In this document: positions 41,258 through 50,951 of the stretch, piece by piece
Numbering within the stretch: position 1 is the stretch's first letter
Layout: every line of letters starts with the position of its first letter
Assembly: GCA_902794125.1 (NCBI GenBank)
Contig: CADBFX010000008.1
Location: 1-64,000 of the forward strand
Direction: 5' to 3'
Source of the DNA: an uncultured Elusimicrobium sp.
Lineage (GTDB): Bacteria; Elusimicrobiota; Elusimicrobia; Elusimicrobiales; Elusimicrobiaceae
Length of the DNA stretch: 64,000 nt
The notes under the pieces: generated by a model
Databases searched by the model: none
What the model saw: only the letters and a program-made list of their open reading frames with translations
What the model was told of the DNA's origin: nothing
Made by a program: the position numbers and the translations under genes

Positions 41258-43765
41258 ATGACCCAACCCTTTCATCTTGTCAGTCCGCTGGACGGTTCTG
41301 TGGTGCCTTTAGAACAAGTGCCGGATCCTGTTTTTAGCGAACACATGTTAGGTGACGGCTTGGCCATAGACCCTCAATCTTGCGAATTATATGCCCCTTG
41401 CGAGGGAACCGTTCTCACGCTTAACAAAGCCAACCACGCTTTAGTATTGGGATATAATGGCCTGGAAATTTTACTGCATATTGGTTTAGACACTGTTAAA
41501 TTAGAAGGGGAAGGATTTATTCCCCATGTAAAAACCGGCGACCAAGTACGCCCCGGCCAAAAACTGATTTCTTTTCAAATGGACACCCTGCGCAAAAAAG
41601 CCACCAGTCCGCTCGTACTCGTGGTAGTGACCGCGCCGGCAGATATTACTCTTTTAAACAAAGCCTCCGGAAACGTCCAACAAGGGCAACCTTTCTTCTC
41701 TATCCCGGCGGAACGGCTTTTACCCAATGCTTCGGTAGAAGATATTTCTTCTTTTGAAGATTCGGCTCCGTTCACCGTTTCCAATAAAAACGGTTTGCAT
41801 GCGCGCCCGGCCGCGGTGCTGGCCAAATTGGCTTCGCTTTATCCATACGCTATACAAATTGTGCATAACGGACAAACCGCAAATGCAAAAAGCATTGTGG
41901 CCATTATGGGTTTAGGCATTACTCAGGGGATGACAATTTCATTACGCGCTTGCGGACCTAAAAAAGAGGCCCGCCAAATTTTGGCCCAACTGGAAGATGC
42001 CTTTAAAAAAGGATTAGGAGAAACCATCGCAGTAGCCCCCACAGAAGAAAATCCTGTGGCGGCTACCACCGTTTCTTTTGCAACTCCCGTCGTTGTACGC
42101 GGTTTATGTGCAAGCGGTGGCTTGGCTTGCGGACCGGCATTCATATATAAAAATACCCGTCTGTCTTTTGAAGAAAATTCAGCGAACTCGCAAGAAGAAT
42201 TCCGCGCGCTGGAAACGGCTCTTTCTACATTAAGTAAACAACTGGAAACACGCATTAGCGAAGAGAAGAACGAAATTTCCCGCACCATTTTAAATGCACA
42301 TCTGTTGCTGTTAAAAGATCCGCTCTTGGCAGATGCTACCCGTAAAACTATTTTGCAAGGCAAAACAGCTGCTTTTGCTTTTAACACAGCTATCCGCCGA
42401 AGTGTGGACATTCTTAAAAAAACCAATAATCAATTTTTAATGGAGCGTATCTCCGATTTAAAAGACGTTCGGCGCGAAGTTCTTGCGTTACTGACCGGGC
42501 AACAAAAAAATCGCATATCTATTCCCCCCGGCAGTATTTTGGTAGCGGAAGATTTGCTTCCTTCGGAAGTTTCATCTTTACCTGATACGCTTGCCGGCGT
42601 AGTGCTCAGCGATGGCTCGCCCACGTCACACACGGGTATTTTATTAAGAAACCGGGCTATCCCCACGCTCGTACACGCTGGGCCGGTGGTACAAACCTTG
42701 CCGCCCAATACGCCCATTTTATTAGAAGCCGATGCCCAACAAGCCATTTTAGCTCCTTCCCAAGAGCAAATTAAAACCTTTTTAGCGCGCTTGCAACAAG
42801 AAAAAGAACTTTCAGCTCAAGCCACCCAAGCGGCCCATACACCCGCACGCACGCAAGACGGATTACTCGTTCAAGTGGAAGGAAACGTCTCTACGGCGCA
42901 AGAAACAGCCCGCGCCGCACAAGCGGGAGCCGACGGTTTTGGCCTCGTACGTACGGAATTTCTATTTCATGATTGCGCATTGGCTCCGTCAGAAGAAGAA
43001 CAATACAAACTCTATCAATCCATTTTGCAAGCCGCCGGGAATACGCCGGTTACGTTTCGTTTGTTAGATACCGGTGGCGATAAGCCGTTACCCTTTATTA
43101 ACATCGCCCCGGAAGAGAACCCCATCGTTGGCGTACGTGGTATTCGGGTACTTAAAAATAATGAATCTTTCTTCCGTGCCCAACTGCGCGCGCTACTGCG
43201 TTTAAAACCGCTTAGCCAAGTACGTATCATGGTTCCTATGGTTGCGTTTGCAGATGAAATTTCACTAATAAAACAAATGCTAGCCGAAGAAGCCCCTCGT
43301 TTGCACGTAACGGAACCGGTGCAACTGGGCATTATGGTAGAAGTACCTTCGGCAGCTTTACAAAGCGAACAGTTAGCCCCGGAAGTAGATTTCTTCTCTA
43401 TCGGCACGAACGATTTAACACAATATACGCTCGCCATTGACCGCGGGCACAAAGAACTTAGTGTACTGGCTGATTCGTTACATCCGGCGGTACTGCGTAT
43501 GATTGCGCTCACCTGTCAAGGCGCGCAAACGCATCAAAAACCGGTCGCTATTTGCGGAGCGATGGCCAGTGATTTGGATGCCGTACCGCTATTAATTGGA
43601 TTCGGAATTACACAATTAGCCGTCAGCACGGGGGCCATTGCACGTGTGAAAGCACTTGTGCGCAGAGTTACGCTTCAGCAATGTCGCCAAGCGGCCCAAC
43701 ATGCGTTACAATTAAAAGATGCAGCTGCCGTTCGGGCATACGTCCGGAATACTTTTAAACTCTAA
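41258..43765 (+). CDS. PTS EIIA(Glc-type)-HPr-Enzyme I fusion
   Basis: 835 residues carrying the soluble phosphorelay of the sugar phosphotransferase system. EIIA (1-150) has active His74 in ILLHIGLDT. HPr (about 170-255) has His181 in NGLHARPAAV, and no Ser-46 kinase-type motif is obvious. Enzyme I (about 275-835) has the phospho-His458 in GSPTSHTGILLRN, the PEP-binding GLVRTEFLF and GVRGIRV, and CGAMASD near 766. Phosphate passes from PEP through EI, HPr and EIIA to NagE. Being one chain in the nag operon, it may supply most or all soluble PTS functions. GGAGG lies 5-6 bases before ATG. Confidence 0.95.
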   Translation: MTQPFHLVSPLDGSVVPLEQVPDPVFSEHMLGDGLAIDPQSCELYAPCEGTVLTLNKANHALVLGYNGLEILLHIGLDTVKLEGEGFIPHVKTGDQVRPGQKLISFQMDTLRKKATSPLVLVVVTAPADITLLNKASGNVQQGQPFFSIPAERLLPNASVEDISSFEDSAPFTVSNKNGLHARPAAVLAKLASLYPYAIQIVHNGQTANAKSIVAIMGLGITQGMTISLRACGPKKEARQILAQLEDAFKKGLGETIAVAPTEENPVAATTVSFATPVVVRGLCASGGLACGPAFIYKNTRLSFEENSANSQEEFRALETALSTLSKQLETRISEEKNEISRTILNAHLLLLKDPLLADATRKTILQGKTAAFAFNTAIRRSVDILKKTNNQFLMERISDLKDVRREVLALLTGQQKNRISIPPGSILVAEDLLPSEVSSLPDTLAGVVLSDGSPTSHTGILLRNRAIPTLVHAGPVVQTLPPNTPILLEADAQQAILAPSQEQIKTFLARLQQEKELSAQATQAAHTPARTQDGLLVQVEGNVSTAQETARAAQAGADGFGLVRTEFLFHDCALAPSEEEQYKLYQSILQAAGNTPVTFRLLDTGGDKPLPFINIAPEENPIVGVRGIRVLKNNESFFRAQLRALLRLKPLSQVRIMVPMVAFADEISLIKQMLAEEAPRLHVTEPVQLGIMVEVPSAALQSEQLAPEVDFFSIGTNDLTQYTLAIDRGHKELSVLADSLHPAVLRMIALTCQGAQTHQKPVAICGAMASDLDAVPLLIGFGITQLAVSTGAIARVKALVRRVTLQQCRQAAQHALQLKDAAAVRAYVRNTFKL

Positions 43766-43775
43766 CGGAGGCACT

Positions 43776-45197
43776 ATGCCACCTATCAAACAAATCTGTT
43801 CTTCCTTTACCAGTGGGCTTGTGCAGTTAGGAAAAGCCCTCATGTTGCCAATTGCCGTACTTCCTATTGCAGGGCTTTTACTGCGTTTGGGACAGCCGGA
43901 TTTACTTAACATTGCCTTTATTTCCCAGGCGGGGGCAGCCGTATTTAATAACTTGCCGCTTATTTTTGCTATCGGCGTAGCAATCGGCTTTGCACACGAA
44001 AATCACGGCGCGGCGGCTTTAGCCTCTTTAGTCGGGTACGTCATTATGACTTCCGCCCTTGGCGCTTTGGATTCTTCCATTAACATGGGTGTACTAGGTG
44101 GTATTTTATGCGGTGTGACAGCCGGGCTTCTCTATAACCGCTACAGAAACATCAAATTACCCTCTTACCTAGCATTTTTTGGTGGGCGACGTTTTGTGCC
44201 GATTGTAACGGGCGGCGTTTGTTTAGTATTGGCGGTGGTTGCCTATTTTATTTGGCCGCCGATTGGCCGCGCCATTGGGGCTTTTGGTAATTGGACTATT
44301 TCTTCCGGCAATATAGGTCTTTTCTTTTACGGGCTTGCCAATCGTTTGTTAATTCCGCTGGGACTGCATCACATTTTAAATAATCTGGTTTGGTTTCAAT
44401 TTGGCGATTTTGCGACCCTTCAAAATGGTGTTCAAACTGTCGTCCATGGCGATTTAACACGCTTCTTTGCCAAAGACCCTACCGCCGGTGCTTTTATGGC
44501 GGGTTTCTTCCCGGTGATGATGTTTGGCCTTCCGGCCGCTTGTTTGGCGATGATTAAAACGGCTCATTCTACCCGCCAAAAAGCCGTAGCCGGGTTACTT
44601 CTTTCCATGGCGTTAACGTCCTTTTTAACCGGCATTACGGAGCCCATTGAATTTTCATTCTTATTTTTAGCGTTCCCGTTATACGTATTACATGCAATAC
44701 TCACCGGGCTGTCTATGGTGATCATGAACGTCTTGCAAATTAAGTTAGGGTTCACTTTTTCTGCCGGGTTATTTGACTACTTATTAAGTTCCGGCTTGGG
44801 TACAAATCCGTGGTTATTGTTGCCGGTGGGGCTTGTGTATGGCCTCATTTATTACTTTGTATTCTATTTTGCCATCACACGCTGGAACTTAAAAACCCCC
44901 GGACGCGAAGAAACCGTCTCCCCCTCCCCACAGGAACAACCCTCTGTGCCGGAAGTACCCGTTTCTTCCCGTGCGGCACAATACTTACAAGCACTGGGGG
45001 GAAAAGATAATATTAAGACCTTTGGTTCTTGCGCCACGCGTCTGCGTTTAGAGGTAAAAGATTTATCACTTATTAACGAACCCGCTCTCAAACAAGCCGG
45101 GGCGCGCGGAGTAATTAAAATAGGAAACGAAAGTGTGCAAGTCGTAATCGGGCCGGAAGTAGAACAACTGGCCAACGAGATTAAACCGCTTCTATAG
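43776..45197 (+). CDS. nagE: PTS N-acetylglucosamine permease, EIICB
   Basis: 473 residues from ATG 43776 (CGGAGG upstream). The EIIC membrane domain (about 10-375) has ten or so helices, GLANRLLIPLGLHHILNN and the sugar-site FLTGITEPIEFSFLF. The EIIB domain (about 400-473) has the phospho-Cys in IKTFGSCATRLRLEV. EIIA is missing but is supplied by the preceding fusion. It imports and phosphorylates GlcNAc (possibly glucose) as GlcNAc-6-phosphate. NagA/NagB downstream favour GlcNAc. Confidence 0.93.
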   Translation: MPPIKQICSSFTSGLVQLGKALMLPIAVLPIAGLLLRLGQPDLLNIAFISQAGAAVFNNLPLIFAIGVAIGFAHENHGAAALASLVGYVIMTSALGALDSSINMGVLGGILCGVTAGLLYNRYRNIKLPSYLAFFGGRRFVPIVTGGVCLVLAVVAYFIWPPIGRAIGAFGNWTISSGNIGLFFYGLANRLLIPLGLHHILNNLVWFQFGDFATLQNGVQTVVHGDLTRFFAKDPTAGAFMAGFFPVMMFGLPAACLAMIKTAHSTRQKAVAGLLLSMALTSFLTGITEPIEFSFLFLAFPLYVLHAILTGLSMVIMNVLQIKLGFTFSAGLFDYLLSSGLGTNPWLLLPVGLVYGLIYYFVFYFAITRWNLKTPGREETVSPSPQEQPSVPEVPVSSRAAQYLQALGGKDNIKTFGSCATRLRLEVKDLSLINEPALKQAGARGVIKIGNESVQVVIGPEVEQLANEIKPLL

Positions 45198-45208
45198 AAG
45201 GAATTTTC

Positions 45209-45970
45209 ATGCGCATACGAGTATTGCATCAATCGGTAGAAACTTACGCCGCTAATTATATCCAGCAGAAAATTAATTCCGTTGGTGCGTCTCGTTTTGT
45301 GTTGGGGCTTCCCACCGGGAGCACCGCACTTGCTATGTATGCCCGCTTGCGCGAATTACATCAACAAGGCCAATTAGATTTTCAACAGATAGTTACGTTT
45401 AATATGGACGAATACGTCGGTCTTCCGCCTACCCATCCGCAAAGTTATCATTATTATATGGAGAAAGAACTTTTCTCGGCTGTAAATATACCTTTGCAAA
45501 ACACCCATATTTTAAACGGTCAAGCGGACGATTTACAAGCCGAATGTCGCGCTTATGAAGATGCTATTACGCAAGTCGGCGGGATTGATTTATTTATCGG
45601 CGGAGTTGGGCGCAACGGACATATTGCATTTAACGAACCGGGTACTCCTTTTGATATACGCACCCACCTAGTCACGTTAGCCCCCGCCACGTTAAAGGCC
45701 AATGCACGATTTTTTGATAACGATATTTCCCGCGTACCTACCCACGCTCTTACGGTAGGAACAGGAACCGTATTGGATGCACGCGAACTATTATTTATGG
45801 CTACTGGGGCGGTAAAGGCTTCCGCGGTGGCCACGTTAGCCCATGCACCTAATCCGGACGAACCATTAACCGCTTTAAAATTACATCCAAACGCTTTATT
45901 ACTGGCCGACGAGGAAGCTGCTTCTTTGCTGCCGGCAACGTTGTCGGATGTGGAGATTATTCATGAATAA
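45209..45970 (+). CDS. nagB: Glucosamine-6-phosphate deaminase
   Basis: 253 residues. It converts glucosamine-6-phosphate to fructose-6-phosphate and ammonia. Motifs: FVLGLPTGSTALAMYARLRELH, VTFNMDEYVGL (catalytic Asp), HPQSYHYYM, IDLFIGGVGRNGHIAFNEPGTPF and the late MATGAVKASAVA. GAAGGAA lies before the ATG, 11 bases after nagE. Its last codons overlap the nagA start. Confidence 0.95.
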   Translation: MRIRVLHQSVETYAANYIQQKINSVGASRFVLGLPTGSTALAMYARLRELHQQGQLDFQQIVTFNMDEYVGLPPTHPQSYHYYMEKELFSAVNIPLQNTHILNGQADDLQAECRAYEDAITQVGGIDLFIGGVGRNGHIAFNEPGTPFDIRTHLVTLAPATLKANARFFDNDISRVPTHALTVGTGTVLDARELLFMATGAVKASAVATLAHAPNPDEPLTALKLHPNALLLADEEAASLLPATLSDVEIIHE

Positions 45971-47108
45971 ATTACTGATTAAAAACATTTCTTTAATTAC
46001 AAAAGATACCATTCTTGAAAAACATAGTTTATTAGTAGAAGACGGCAAAATTGCGCGCATAGCACCAACAGAGCAGTTATCACACATTTCAGATGCGTCC
46101 GTCGTGCAAGCGGAAGGAGAATATCTTGCCCCGGGGCTGATTGATTTGCATATTCACGGGTTTGCGGGCCACGGACCGGAACAAGCCACTCCAGAAGCGT
46201 TGCTGGAAATGTCCGCAGCGCTAGCTAAGCATGGAGTCACCGCGTTTTGCCCCACGCTTTACGCCGAGCAACCGCAAGAACTCGCTGTCAAACTAAAAAA
46301 ACTTGTGCCTTCCTTTGGAAAAGAAAAAGGTGCCAAAATTATCGGTTTTCATTTGGAAGGGCCTTTTATCTCCCCCTATAAACTGGGTGTAATGAAACCG
46401 CAAGATATTGCTGCGCCGGACGTTAAAATTTTGGAAAAGTTGTACGAAGCCGCCGACGGCCATATTGCCGCCGTGACGCTGGCCCCGGAACTAAAGAACA
46501 CACAACCTATTATTGATTTTTGTTTAAAACATCATATCCTGCCACAAGCCGGGCACACCAATGCTACGTATGAAGAATTTTTATATGCCATCAAAACCGG
46601 TGTAAAACACGTAACGCATTTATTTAATGCCATGAGCCCCTTCCATCACCGGGCACCCGGCGTGGCGGGCGGGGCGTTGATGCACCCGGAAGTATCTTGT
46701 GAAGTGATTGCGGACGGCGTACACGTACATCCGCACTTGGTTTCTTTTTTGCGCACCGTAAAACCGCTGGACAAAATTGTACTGGTAACAGATAGTTTAC
46801 TGCCTACGGGCTTAGAAGATGGTCCGTTTGTAGCCAACGGGGAAGGCGTAATTTTTGAAGCGGGTGCTTGGCACCGCACCTTTGACCACGTACTTGCTGG
46901 CTCGGCTTTAACCATGGCGCAAGGGGTGCGCAATTTGGTGGCATGGGGTTATTCGTTACCGCAAGCTATTCAATGTGCCGCGGCAAACCCGGCCCAACTG
47001 ATGAATTGGCCCGCCGGGAAACTAACAGAAGGGGCTCCGGCCGACTTGATACTTCTAGATAAAAACTTAAACGTTTTGCACACGTTTATTAACGGCCAAG
47101 AAAAATAA
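45963..47108 (+). CDS. nagA: N-acetylglucosamine-6-phosphate deacetylase
   Basis: 381 residues, start at ATG 45963 overlapping nagB by 8 bases with GGAG 7 bases upstream. Amidohydrolase fold: APGLIDLHIHGFAGHG, IIGFHLEGPFISPYKLG (metal Glu), QAGHTNATYEEF (His), VTHLFNAMSPFHHRAPG (His) and VTDSLLPTG (catalytic Asp). It removes acetate from GlcNAc-6-phosphate. It converges directly on rex, with 9 bases between and no hairpin visible, so transcripts may read through. Confidence 0.95.
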   Translation: MNKLLIKNISLITKDTILEKHSLLVEDGKIARIAPTEQLSHISDASVVQAEGEYLAPGLIDLHIHGFAGHGPEQATPEALLEMSAALAKHGVTAFCPTLYAEQPQELAVKLKKLVPSFGKEKGAKIIGFHLEGPFISPYKLGVMKPQDIAAPDVKILEKLYEAADGHIAAVTLAPELKNTQPIIDFCLKHHILPQAGHTNATYEEFLYAIKTGVKHVTHLFNAMSPFHHRAPGVAGGALMHPEVSCEVIADGVHVHPHLVSFLRTVKPLDKIVLVTDSLLPTGLEDGPFVANGEGVIFEAGAWHRTFDHVLAGSALTMAQGVRNLVAWGYSLPQAIQCAAANPAQLMNWPAGKLTEGAPADLILLDKNLNVLHTFINGQEK

Positions 47109-47117
47109 CGTTTTCAA

Positions 47118-47756
47118 CTATCTGCTTTTCAACTTGGCACAAAGTTCGGCTAACCCGGAAGCAATATCTTCTTTCTGCACCACAACATCCGACGGAACTT
47201 TTAAATTAACCGGAGCAAAATTCCAAATTGCTTTAATGCCGGCCGCCGTGAGTGTATCGGTTACACCTTGCGCTGCGGCAGCGGGCAGCGTTAAAACAGC
47301 AATTTTTAAATTCTCTTTCTCAATAATGCTTGTTAACTGCGCCGTGTGATACACCGGCACCCCGTTTACAGGCACGCCAACTTTTTCCGGCCGCGTATCA
47401 AACGCAGCCACAATTTCCAGCCCGTGGTTTTTAAACCCGTCAAACCCCAGTAGTGCCGCGCCTAAATGCCCTACCCCTACTAAAAATGCTTTATTTAAAT
47501 TATTCCAGCCCAAAAATTGTTCTATCACGTGGATCGTGCCCGCCACCTTAAACCCCGCCCGCCGTTTGCTGGGGGCTCCGACGGATTGCAAATCTTTTTT
47601 GATGACAATCGGCAACAGGTGCGTTTCGGCGGCCAAGTCGGTAGAAGATACCAATTCCCGCCCGTAAGTATGGAAATTATAAAAAATACGCAGGTATTGC
47701 GGCAAACGGCGAATCGTCTGCACGCTAATAGATTTACGACGAGTAGATAAGGACAT
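47118..47756 (-). CDS. rex: Redox-sensing transcriptional repressor Rex
   Basis: 212 residues. The N-terminal winged helix (about 10-85) includes ISVQTIRRLPQYLRIFYNF, VSSTDLAAE and VIKKDLQSVG. The Rossmann domain (about 90-212) has AFLVGVGHLGAALLGFDGF and AAFDTRPEKVG, which bind NADH/NAD+. Rex represses fermentation genes when NAD+ is high and is released by NADH. GAGG lies before the ATG. Divergent from adhE, 179 bases apart; a dyad abuts its own -10, implying autoregulation. Confidence 0.95.
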   Translation of the reverse strand: MSLSTRRKSISVQTIRRLPQYLRIFYNFHTYGRELVSSTDLAAETHLLPIVIKKDLQSVGAPSKRRAGFKVAGTIHVIEQFLGWNNLNKAFLVGVGHLGAALLGFDGFKNHGLEIVAAFDTRPEKVGVPVNGVPVYHTAQLTSIIEKENLKIAVLTLPAAAAQGVTDTLTAAGIKAIWNFAPVNLKVPSDVVVQKEDIASGLAELCAKLKSR

Positions 47757-47773: not shown

Positions 47774-47791
47774 TAGATATTTCAATATCTA
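47774..47791. promoter_or_regulatory. Predicted Rex operator at the rex promoter
   Basis: TAGATA-N6-TATCTA perfect half-sites; same 6-6-6 geometry as classical Rex sites (TGTGAA-N6-TTCACA) but different bases. It starts at the edge of the rex -10 box. Confidence 0.6.
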
Positions 47792-47819
47792 TAATAAGTA
47801 TTTATAAATCATTTGTCAA
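47791..47819 (-). promoter_or_regulatory. rex promoter
   Basis: Minus-strand TTGACA (47814-47819), 17-base spacer, TATTAT (47791-47796). Confidence 0.75.
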
Positions 47820-47849
47820 GTTTTTTAAAAAAATATTGTAGAGTAACAG

Positions 47850-47878
47850 TTGACAAAAAAACATATAAAACATAAAAT
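47850..47878 (+). promoter_or_regulatory. adhE promoter
   Basis: TTGACA at 47850-47855, 17-base spacer, TAAAAT at 47873-47878. Confidence 0.75.
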
Positions 47879-47879
47879 A

Positions 47880-47907
47880 TAGATAACAAAATATCTATAC
47901 ATAGATA
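47880..47907. promoter_or_regulatory. Predicted Rex operator(s) at the adhE start site
   Basis: TAGATA-N6-TATCTA at 47880-47897, then a further TAGATA at 47902-47907 forming a second, everted dyad with the 47892-47897 half-site. It lies 1 base after the -10 and covers the expected start point of transcription. Confidence 0.6.
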
Positions 47908-47935: not shown

Positions 47936-50540
47936 ATGGCGGAAAAGAAACAATCCTCGCCGGCAGTTGCCACAAAAGAAGAACTAGCTATGCTAGATAA
48001 AATTGTGGACAAAGTAAAAGCCGCGCAACTTAAATATGCAACCTACACGCAAGAACAAGTAGATAAAATTTTCCGTGCAGCAGCCATTGCGGCCGCCCAG
48101 CACCGGATTCCGTTATCCAAAATGGCCGTGGAAGAAAGCGGCATGGGTGTAATGGAAGATAAAGTAATTAAAAACCAATTCGCTTCCGAATACATTTACA
48201 ACCAATATAAAGACACCAAAACCTGCGGCGTTTTGTCTGATGATGACGCTTTCGGCTACCGCCAAGTAGCCGAACCGATTGGTGTGATTGCGGGCGTTAT
48301 TCCCACCACCAATCCCACCTCTACCGCAATTTTCAAAAGTTTACTCGCTTTAAAAACGCGCAACGGGATTGTTTTCTCCCCCCATCCGCGTGCCAAAAAA
48401 TGCACCATTGAAGCGGCTAAAATTGTGTTAAATGCCGCCGTAGAAGCAGGCGCCCCGGAAGGAATTATCGGTTGGATTGAAAACCCGACCATGGCTCTTT
48501 CCAATGCATTGATGCACCACCCGCATATTAACTTAATTTTGGCCACCGGCGGCCCGGGCATGGTTCGTGCGGCATACTCCTCCGGCAAACCGGCTATCGG
48601 CGTAGGTGCCGGAAATACCCCGGCTGTGATTGATGCTACCGCCGATATTAAAATGGCTGTCAGCTCCATTATTATGAGTAAAACCTTTGATAACGGTATG
48701 ATTTGCGCCAGCGAACAATCCGTGATCGTAGAAGACAGCGTGTACGATGCCGTCAAGCAAGAATTTATCACCCGTGGTTGCCATTTTGTAACCGGTAAAG
48801 ACCGCAAAAAATTAGCCGAAACTATTGTGGTAAACGGTAAATTAAATTCCGGCATTGTCGGTCAAAGTGCGGAAAAAATTGCCGAAATGGCCGGTATTAA
48901 AGTTCCCGCCGGAACCAAAATTTTAATTGCCGAAGCCAAAGAAGTGAGCGACGAAGAAGTATTCGCCCGCGAAAAATTATCTCCGGTGCTCGGCTTCTAC
49001 CGCGCTAAAGATTTTCCGCACGCCGTTACCTTAGCCCGCGATTTAATCTTGTATGGCGGTGCCGGACATACCTCTGTTCTCTACACAGCTGAAACAAACG
49101 AAGATCATATCACAGCTTTCCAAGATATGCCTACGGCTCGCACGCTCATCAACATTCCGTCTTCCCAAGGGGCTATCGGAGATGTGTACAACTTCAAACT
49201 CGCGCCGTCTTTGACGCTTGGTTGCGGCTCTTGGGGCGGCAACTCGGTCAGCGAAAATATCGGAGTAAAACACCTTATGAACGTGAAATCCGTCGCGGAA
49301 CGCCGCGAAAATATGTACTGGTACAAAGTACCTTCTAAAATCTACTTCAAACGCGGCGCGTTGTCGCAAGCGTTAGCGGAACTAAAAGATAAAAAACGCG
49401 CTTACATCATTACCGATAAAACCATGGAACAACTCGGCCATGTACGCGCCGTAGCGGATGTGTTGGAAAGCTTGAATATTAAATTCCGCGTATTTTCCGA
49501 CGTTCTGCCGGACCCGAACATCACGAACGTAAACGAAGCGTTAGCTATTGCCAATTCCTGGCAGCCGGACCTTATTATTTCGTTAGGTGGCGGTTCTGCC
49601 ATGGACGAAGGGAAAATGGTGTGGCTGATGTACGAAAACCCGGACACGAGCTTTGAAGATATTGCCATGCGCTTTATGGATATCCGCAAACGCATCTACG
49701 CCGCCGGACCGTTGGGCAAAAAAGCAACCATGGTGGCCATCCCCACCACTTCCGGTACCGGTTCCGAAGTTACGCCGTTTACCATTATTACCGACGAAAA
49801 AACCGGCACCAAATACGCCATCACGGACTATGCCTTAACCCCCGACGTGGCTATTATTGACCCGGAATTTGTACTCGGTATGCCTAAATCTTTAACGGCT
49901 TTCTCCGGGTTGGACGTGTTGACCCACGCTATTGAAGCCTACACTTCCGTGTACTCCACCAACTTCACGGAAGGGCAAGCCTTAGAAGCTATGCGCCTGG
50001 TATTTAAATACTTAGAGAAGTCCAATGCACTATGCGGCCACCATTGCCGGTATGGCATTTGCTAACGCCTTCTTGGGGCTCTGCCACTCCATGGCGCACA
50101 AATTAGGCGCCATGTACCACGTTCCGCACGGATTAGCCAACGCGATGCTTTTGTCCTACGTTATTGAATTCAACGCTACGGATAAACCCACCAAGCAAGG
50201 ATTATTCCCGCAATACAAATATCCGTTTGTAAAAGGACGCTATGCCAAGATTATTGACTTCCTCTTGCCGCATAACAACCTGGGCGACGATAAAGATGCC
50301 AAAGTGCAGAAACTGATTGACATGGTGGAAGAATTGAAACACAAACTCAATATTCCGCGCTCGCTCAAAGAATACGGTATTCAAGAAAAAGAATTCTTGG
50401 ATAACTTGGACAAACTTTCCGAACTCGCTTTTGACGATCAGTGCACCGGCGGAAATGCCCGCTACCCGCTCATTAGCGAAATTAAGGAATTGTTCTTAAA
50501 AGCCTACTATGGTGAACCCGTGAAACATAAAAACAAATAA
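47936..50540 (+). pseudogene. adhE: Bifunctional aldehyde/alcohol dehydrogenase AdhE, frame broken near 50015-50025
   Basis: The N-terminal acetylating aldehyde dehydrogenase domain (about 15-450) has the catalytic Cys in NGMICASEQSV near 255. The Fe-dependent alcohol dehydrogenase domain (about 470 on) has GGGSAMDEGK near 550, IPTTSGTGSE and the metal-site DVLTHAIEAYTS near 659. The first frame stops at 50065. The rest (MHYAATIAGMAFANAFLGLCHSMAHKLG, with metal-site His, to 50540) continues one frame over. Compared with the family, about a dozen residues between FKYLEKS and MHYAAT are missing, so a short out-of-frame deletion fits. AAGGAG precedes the ATG; Rex-type control is predicted. Loss of the second half would kill alcohol dehydrogenase activity. 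Sequence error is possible. Confidence 0.9.
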
Positions 50541-50554
50541 ATGCTGTTCTTCTC

Positions 50555-50588
50555 AAAATCCCCGCCAACCCGGCGGGGATTTTTTTGT
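50555..50588 (+). terminator. Terminator of adhE
   Basis: 12-bp stem AAAATCCCCGCC (50555-50566) with its complement from 50572, then a T run. Confidence 0.88.
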
Positions 50589-50594
50589 TATAAA

Positions 50595-50603
50595 TGCTAT
50601 AAT
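50595..50603 (+). promoter_or_regulatory. Extended -10 promoter, leaderless start
   Basis: TGCTATAAT ends 6 bases before the ATG at 50610. Confidence 0.65.
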
Positions 50604-50609
50604 AGGGCT

Positions 50610-50951
50610 ATGGGACTGGAAGAATTAGAAAACAAGGAATACTTTTCTATCGGCGACGTGAAACGCATTACCGGCGTGCCGGAGTATTCCGTGCGCTATT
50701 GGGAAGCGGAGTTTAATTTAATTCGTCCCATTCGGTTAGAAAGCGGACACCGCCGTTACACTAAAAACGACGTGTACACTATCCTTAAAATTAAAGACTT
50801 AATCTACAAACATAAACTCACCTTGGAAGGCGCAAAAAAACAGCTGGGCAATTATCGTTTACCTACCGCGGGCGATACCAAACGCCCCCGCGCGGACATC
50901 AAACTTCTGACGGAAATTAAAGAAACGCTGGAAGATTTGTTAAAAGAATGA
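50610..50951 (+). CDS. MerR-family transcriptional regulator (short)
   Basis: 113 residues from ATG 50610; an earlier in-frame codon lies inside the adhE terminator and is unlikely. The MerR helix-turn-helix (about 12-80) is clear: YFSIGDVKRITGVPEYSVRYWE, then GHRRYTKNDVYTILKIKDL. The C-terminal part is short (about 80-113), Lys-rich, without effector-binding Cys or a ligand domain. This matches the small MerR-type regulators of unknown signal found near tRNA or ihf genes. -10 box 6 bases upstream, no Shine-Dalgarno. tRNA-Pro genes follow after 38 bases. Confidence 0.85.
   Translation: MGLEELENKEYFSIGDVKRITGVPEYSVRYWEAEFNLIRPIRLESGHRRYTKNDVYTILKIKDLIYKHKLTLEGAKKQLGNYRLPTAGDTKRPRADIKLLTEIKETLEDLLKE

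Follow-up and report, generated by a model that had tools for sequence, protein, structure and literature searches.

In the window, by which we mean the whole 64,000-nucleotide stretch of DNA from an uncultured Elusimicrobium sp. considered here, the gene of the redox-sensing repressor Rex and that of the bifunctional dehydrogenase AdhE are divergent, and the palindrome TAGATA-N6-TATCTA stands before each of them. Its bases are not those of the published Rex operators, which raises the question whether the two dyads are operators of Rex itself and, if so, whether the change of bases is confined to this lineage.

The rex-adhE region of the window

The features of the locus are the following, O1 and O2 being the predicted operators.

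47118 to 47756, reverse strand: rex, redox-sensing transcriptional repressor, 212 aa (Pfam, NCBIfam, phmmer)
47547 to 47615, reverse strand: recognition helix and wing of Rex, LPIVIKKDLQSVGAPSKRRAGFK (aligned to the T. maritima Rex numbering)
47774 to 47791, no strand: operator O1 (rex), TAGATATTTCAATATCTA, exact dyad, in 37/37 aligned relatives
47791 to 47796, reverse strand: rex promoter -10, TATTAT (from sequence; conserved island)
47814 to 47819, reverse strand: rex promoter -35, TTGACA (from sequence; TTGAC 28-31 bp from the dyad in 37/37)
47850 to 47855, forward strand: adhE promoter -35, TTGACA (from sequence; TTGAC 30 bp from the dyad in 34/37)
47873 to 47878, forward strand: adhE promoter -10, TAAAAT (from sequence; conserved island)
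47880 to 47897, no strand: operator O2 (adhE), TAGATAACAAAATATCTA, exact dyad, in 37/37 aligned relatives
47902 to 47907, forward strand: third half-site, TAGATA, 3' of O2 (present; role uncertain)
47936 to 50540, forward strand: adhE, bifunctional acetaldehyde-CoA/alcohol dehydrogenase (NF010378, 1104.8 bits; C-terminal part, PF25137, encoded in 50025-50540)

Both dyads are perfect 6-6-6 repeats, with coordinates and letters exactly as reported in a preliminary description of this DNA, and no further exact copy of TAGATA-N6-TATCTA is present in the 1.43-Mb assembly, where base composition leads to an expectation of about 0.16 copies per genome. The -35 and -10 boxes are separated by 17 bp in both promoters. 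The -10 of rex shares one base with O1 and that of adhE ends one base ahead of O2, so that the dyads indeed abut the -10 boxes of good promoters, as first described, with a one-base overlap and a one-base gap, respectively. Since they start at these boxes, each of them spans a predicted transcription start.

The two divergent genes had also been named correctly. The product of rex combines an N-terminal Put_DNA-bind_N winged helix (PF06971, 46.2 bits for a cut-off of 27) with a C-terminal CoA/NAD-binding Rossmann domain (PF02629, 76.8 bits for a cut-off of 22.3), has the NCBIfam equivalog NF003994 as its top model (249.6 bits for a cut-off of 130, the next model reaching 194.4) and matches the Rex chain 2vt2 with a phmmer E-value of 3.7e-35, whereas the other gene is recognized as adhE by NF010378. 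Compared to its relatives, this adhE lacks 38 bp near 50023 (50021-50025), between ...KYLEKS and MHYAATIAG...; the resulting frameshift leaves two open reading frames (47936-50065 and 50025-50540) in place of one. Every other full-length adhE seen in the genus is open, and the gap may stem from a true deletion or from an error of assembly; rex and both operators look intact in this metagenome-assembled genome despite the frameshift. Beyond the end of rex (43719-47108), the translations resemble a PTS-type transporter, a glucosamine-6-phosphate deaminase and an N-acetylglucosamine-6-phosphate deacetylase, and a small regulator that looks MerR-like from its sequence lies directly 3' of adhE (50541-50951).

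Conservation among relatives

The named loci nearest to the window belong to metagenome-assembled genomes of uncultured Elusimicrobium and Candidatus Avelusimicrobium (Elusimicrobiaceae). In an alignment of 37 rex-adhE intergenic regions, one of them that of the window, both dyads are kept in all 37 as TRGATAT-N4-ATATCYA, at a distance of 105-109 bp (about 107) from each other. Over these 74 dyads, T1, G3, A4, T5 and their mirror bases are constant and A6 is found in 73, the half-site position 2 (A or G) being the sole core position that varies freely. Together with the -35 and -10 boxes, the dyads form the best-conserved islands of an intergenic sequence that is variable elsewhere. The preliminary description had let its reading hang on conservation between related rex-adhE regions, and on this point the outcome is strongly positive.

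It had also proposed that the third half-site (47902) forms an everted dyad at adhE. The half-site itself is present, and a similar one follows at a distance of up to 70 bp in 21 of the 37 relatives, but its spacing is most often 16 bp and is 3-5 bp, as in the window, in only four of these 21. With such a variable spacing, the everted arrangement is not conserved and is ruled out as a conserved second operator.

A proposed Rex circuit

We consider it highly probable that, in this group of Elusimicrobia of the gut, the two dyads are operators of Rex itself, through which Rex would repress both rex and adhE until NADH releases it. A Rex dimer carrying NAD+ would bind each 18-bp TRGATAT-N4-ATATCYA site, and since the dyads lie at the -10 boxes and over the predicted starts, bound Rex would block RNA polymerase at both promoters, resulting in autorepression at rex and in repression of the ethanol-forming, NADH-consuming AdhE. 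A rise in NADH would then cause the release of Rex, and AdhE would be made until NADH is reoxidized. The sign of this control, i.e., repression at high NAD+ and release as NADH accumulates, is suggested by the sites over both starts, by autoregulation and by the nature of AdhE.

DNA contacts and operator bases

The published Rex consensus is TTGTGAA-W4-TTCACAA (PMC2883068), thus a 6-N4-6 core inside a 7-N4-7 palindrome and not the TGTGAA-N6-TTCACA form given in the preliminary description, whereas the Rex site of Clostridiaceae is TTGTTAA-N4-TTAACAA (PMC8457756). Neither form is found at rex or adhE in the window, where the 18-bp, 7-N4-7 geometry is kept and four of the seven half-site bases differ. 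Compared to the canonical Rex/ROP operators of Firmicutes and Actinobacteria, T1, G3 and A6 are shared, whereas positions 2, 4, 5 and 7 are R, A, T and T instead of T, T, G and A. The two systems also have in common a winged-helix and Rossmann protein and, as predicted for the window, rex and adhE as targets, but the Elusimicrobiaceae present only two operators per genome and their Rex has I/V at residue 45, K instead of R48 and a replaced glycine wing (G58S, G61R). The clostridial Rex that recognizes TTGTTAA (C. acetobutylicum, and Rex_2471 of C. thermocellum) resembles that of the Elusimicrobiaceae in the T at half-site position 5 and in ethanol genes as targets. On the contrary, half-site positions 2, 4 and 7 differ, its helix reads IRQDLNCFG (type 1) instead of xKKDLQxVG, and its regulon is large (PMC8457756) compared to two operators.

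According to the structure of T. maritima Rex bound to DNA, Arg48 recognizes the G at position 3, Lys49 reads the G at position 5 and the A at position 6, and Arg60 and Gly61 of the wing touch half-site positions 2 and 1; residue 45 makes base contacts in three further Rex structures (PMC8836258); the half-site positions are our own mapping of the base numbers of that paper. At these contact residues, the window's Rex carries I45, V46, K48 (for R), K49, Q52, V54, S58 (for G) and R61 (for G). Similarly, the Rex of the genus all have I or V at residue 45, V instead of Gln46, K instead of Arg48, Q instead of Ser52 and the wing APSKxRAGF, in which Ser (or Thr) replaces Gly58 and Arg replaces Gly61. 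Residue 48 is K in 15/15 genus Rex and R in 56/56 sequences from outside. The contact residues thus deviate from canonical Rex where the bases deviate, which we count in favor of Rex as the binder of the dyads, and the first reading of a Rex-type operator with the usual overall geometry, other bases and matching changes in the recognition helix stands, provided that it is aligned as an 18-bp 7-N4-7 site.

Sensing residues

The nucleotide loop GxGxxG (VGVGHLG) and Asp191 (VVVQKEDIASGL) are kept in the window's Rex. The NAD-sensing Tyr100, a functional residue that lies outside the criteria of the family models, is Phe in all 15 genus Rex compared and Tyr in 53 of 56 others (the Phe is residue 105 in the window's own protein), and Asn92 is His throughout the genus Rex with the exception of one sequence retaining Asn. 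Tyr100 is part of the switch, in which it touches the NAD+ ribose and then, with NADH bound, Asp191 (PMC8836258), so that the response of the genus Rex to its ligand may differ and its sensing step may be modified. Rex could then bind the dyads as proposed and act, through Y100F and N92H, as a sensor of the NAD+ pool or as a near-constitutive autoregulator. We hold this to be unlikely, though the best placed of the alternatives, as Asp191 is retained along with the GxGxxG loop, an aromatic ring remains for stacking and the target is still the NADH-consuming AdhE.

Joint loss of rex and the predicted operator

The reading of the dyads as operators of Rex can be confronted with genomes that have no Rex. 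Among 37 genomes of the genus, scored by protein search and by the Pfam model, 22 possess Rex (including G014, where rex is split across two contigs) and 15 do not. TRGATAT-N4-ATATCYA is present in 22/22 of the former and 0/15 of the latter, the adhE site of G000 deviating from the strict motif at one base; the Fisher p is about 1e-10 (2.6e-10 as computed with one Rex-less genome excluded), a raw value that is inflated by kinship. Eleven of the 15 Rex-less genomes retain a full-length adhE, 85-90% identical, behind a differing promoter (G003, G004, G009, G011, G015, G018, G026, G029, G030, G031 and G036), and several of these assemblies are 95-99% complete. Upstream of adhE in these eleven genomes no operator was found, the best match having 3-5 mismatches; given an intact adhE in well-assembled genomes, its absence is not merely due to assembly loss. 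In the AdhE tree, the Rex-less genomes fall in two separate clades, which indicates no fewer than two joint losses of rex and the operator, provided that their ancestor possessed both, and these two clades are the honest number of independent loss events. A chance origin of the dyads is ruled out by this loss together with rex and by their conservation.

Where it occurs in the genus, the motif has two copies per genome, both at rex-adhE. Beyond this locus, and with one mismatch allowed, matches occur at background level only, to a similar extent in genomes with and without Rex and in a reversed-pattern control. The sites are therefore specific to rex and adhE, and the Rex regulon of the genus appears to consist of two operators. 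A wider regulon in the window's own genome was discarded, as the one-mismatch scan leaves rex and adhE alone above background. Thus, the sites that the preliminary description had looked for at other redox genes were not found above background; with the motif conserved among relatives, this points to a local two-operator circuit and does not refute a Rex box. In another family of Elusimicrobiota, whose Rex is about 33% identical, no operator of the same kind was found in the upstream regions, and three single motif matches in its genomes look like background.

A second type of Rex in Clostridia

The nearest rex genes outside Elusimicrobia are preceded by TATCGATA repeats. These clostridial sites emerged from the inspection of half-sites, a scan of the outgroups for perfect 7-N4-7 palindromes having missed them. 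The Rex of the sampled Clostridia are of two types, type 1 with a helix and wing like IRQDLNCFG..FGQQGYGYN and type 2 with VRKDLxxVS..GRPKxGY. Exact TCGATA-N6-TATCGA lies upstream of rex or its operon in 11 of the 19 type-2 loci, compared to none of the 21 type-1 loci, and with one mismatch in two further type-2 loci. Six of the 19 present no site with at most one mismatch within the stretch examined; in one of these six (G256), two exact sites occur 11-12 kb upstream, where the gene cluster starts. Genome-wide, the exact site occurs in 13 of 18 type-2 genomes and in 7 of the 178 remaining genomes of the class sample (p = 8e-12, kinship ignored), and most type-2 genomes hold exactly one copy, usually at rex. 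The shift of bases is consequently not confined to the lineage of the window, as had been supposed, since a class of Rex in Clostridia carries TCGATA-N6-TATCGA.

The type-2 cassettes bearing TCGATA associate rex with adhE in five loci, with subunits of an electron-bifurcating hydrogenase in three, of which one also has nfn-like genes preceding rex, and with genes resembling malate dehydrogenase, fumarase and heterodisulfide reductase in two, the latter judged from sequence starts only. Residue 45 is V or I in 23/23 clostridial type-2 and 15/15 genus Rex, and S, A or E in 17/17 type-1 Rex; similarly, residue 54 is V or I (rarely T or A) in type-2 and genus Rex as opposed to F in type 1. NF003994 is the best model for the six type-2 Rex tested, whereas one type-1 Rex scored best with NF003990.

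The window's Rex agrees with type 2 in its best-scoring model (NF003994), in a V/I residue at 45 and in a V/I/T residue at 54, and more broadly Elusimicrobiaceae and clostridial type 2 have in common NF003994 as best model, V/I45, V54, the half-site T-N-GATA (T1, G3, A4, T5 and A6) and the linkage of rex to adhE. They differ in that the clostridial representatives have C at position 2, R48, the wing GGRPKxGY and co-directional rex and adhE, whereas the Elusimicrobiaceae have A or G at position 2, K48, the wing APSKxRAGF and divergent genes with two operators. Exact TCGATA-N6-TATCGA is hence absent from the locus, and because position 2 is not C we call the Elusimicrobiaceae Rex a variant of the type-2 class and not a plain member. 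To judge from its sequence, the window's Rex thus falls in a class with the half-site TNGATA and not TTGTGAA, with TRGATAT as the Elusimicrobiaceae form, in which the purine at position 2 would go along with R48K, Q46V and the rebuilt wing. A tree of the Rex C-terminal domain, meant to show one origin of the TNGATA class, has too few columns to settle its deep forks.

Several clostridial loci show further particularities. Five of them (L041, L042, L050, L052 and L057) exhibit arrays of palindromic TATCGATA octamers at intervals of 14-15 bp, in which neighboring Rex sites overlap; such arrays are missing in Elusimicrobiaceae because of the A or G at position 2. In four others (L249, L255, L258 and L259), a gene with a LysR-type-looking N-terminus (HLKYAVEVEKTGSISKAAQNLYMNQPQ) adjoins the TCGATA site or the type-2 rex. 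Anaerocolumna sedimenticola harbors three Rex paralogues (C1:4974149, C1:4951954 and C1:4178236), one belonging to type 1 and the others to type 2, and the exact site lies upstream of the operon of only one of the two type-2 genes.

In C. thermocellum, the gene of Rex_1799, which we take to be Cthe_0422 adjoining the adhE gene Cthe_0423, would fit type 2, and its product is probably of the NF003994 type. Rex_1799 is the second Rex of this species, 36% identical to the characterized one, and the DAP-seq paper reports no motif for it (PMC8457756). A literature search found no description of a TCGATA-type Rex operator; Ravcheev et al. 2012 and RegPrecise lay outside its scope, and priority is not established.

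Other readings of the dyads

The dyads might alternatively be operators of another, unlinked regulator, for instance a global regulator of fermentation, that would happen to control both rex and adhE and have disappeared along with rex from some species. Indeed, divergent gene pairs can share a third regulator, the binding of Rex to the dyads is a prediction from sequence, and at a few loci of Clostridia LysR-type-looking genes do adjoin the TCGATA site. On the contrary, two motif copies per genome at a single locus are what a local autoregulator, as opposed to a global one, would need, a site of this type precedes type-2 rex in Clostridia whatever the neighbors (adhE, hyd, nfn or mdh-fum-hdr), and changes in the site are accompanied by changes in the contact residues of Rex, which makes an unlinked regulator very improbable. 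That the dyads are AT-rich hairpins or chance palindromes at transcript starts and not protein sites has a next to negligible probability since, despite their AT-richness and their position over the predicted starts, their base identity, beyond mere symmetry, is constant in 37 sequences, the site vanishes along with rex, and a dyad that begins at the -10 has the transcript starting inside it, so that the full stem could not form.

Significance for the Rex family

Beyond the operators of Rex in Elusimicrobiaceae, it seems likely to us that the family comprises two classes of DNA specificity. Beside the TTGTGAA class, on which studies have centered, the second, widespread but little-studied class (NF003994, V/I45) would read T-N-GATA-N6-TATC-N-A and run small, self-contained redox cassettes (adhE, HydABC, Nfn or mdh-fum-hdr), in many cases from one operator per genome, and the Elusimicrobiaceae would have drifted further, to TRGATAT with R48K. 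If this two-class reading is true, genomes that encode both classes would possess two insulated NADH circuits. Since a given change of bases goes along with a given contact residue (45, plus 48 in Elusimicrobiaceae), Rex would offer a clean test of how a winged-helix protein changes its address on DNA, and the type-2 class yields a concrete prediction for Rex_1799 of C. thermocellum. Rex regulons are usually predicted by scans for TTGTGAA or TTGTTAA, and such scans miss the TNGATA class. In anaerobes of the gut and of biofuel production, this class seems to govern operons that encode AdhE, electron-bifurcating hydrogenase and transhydrogenase.
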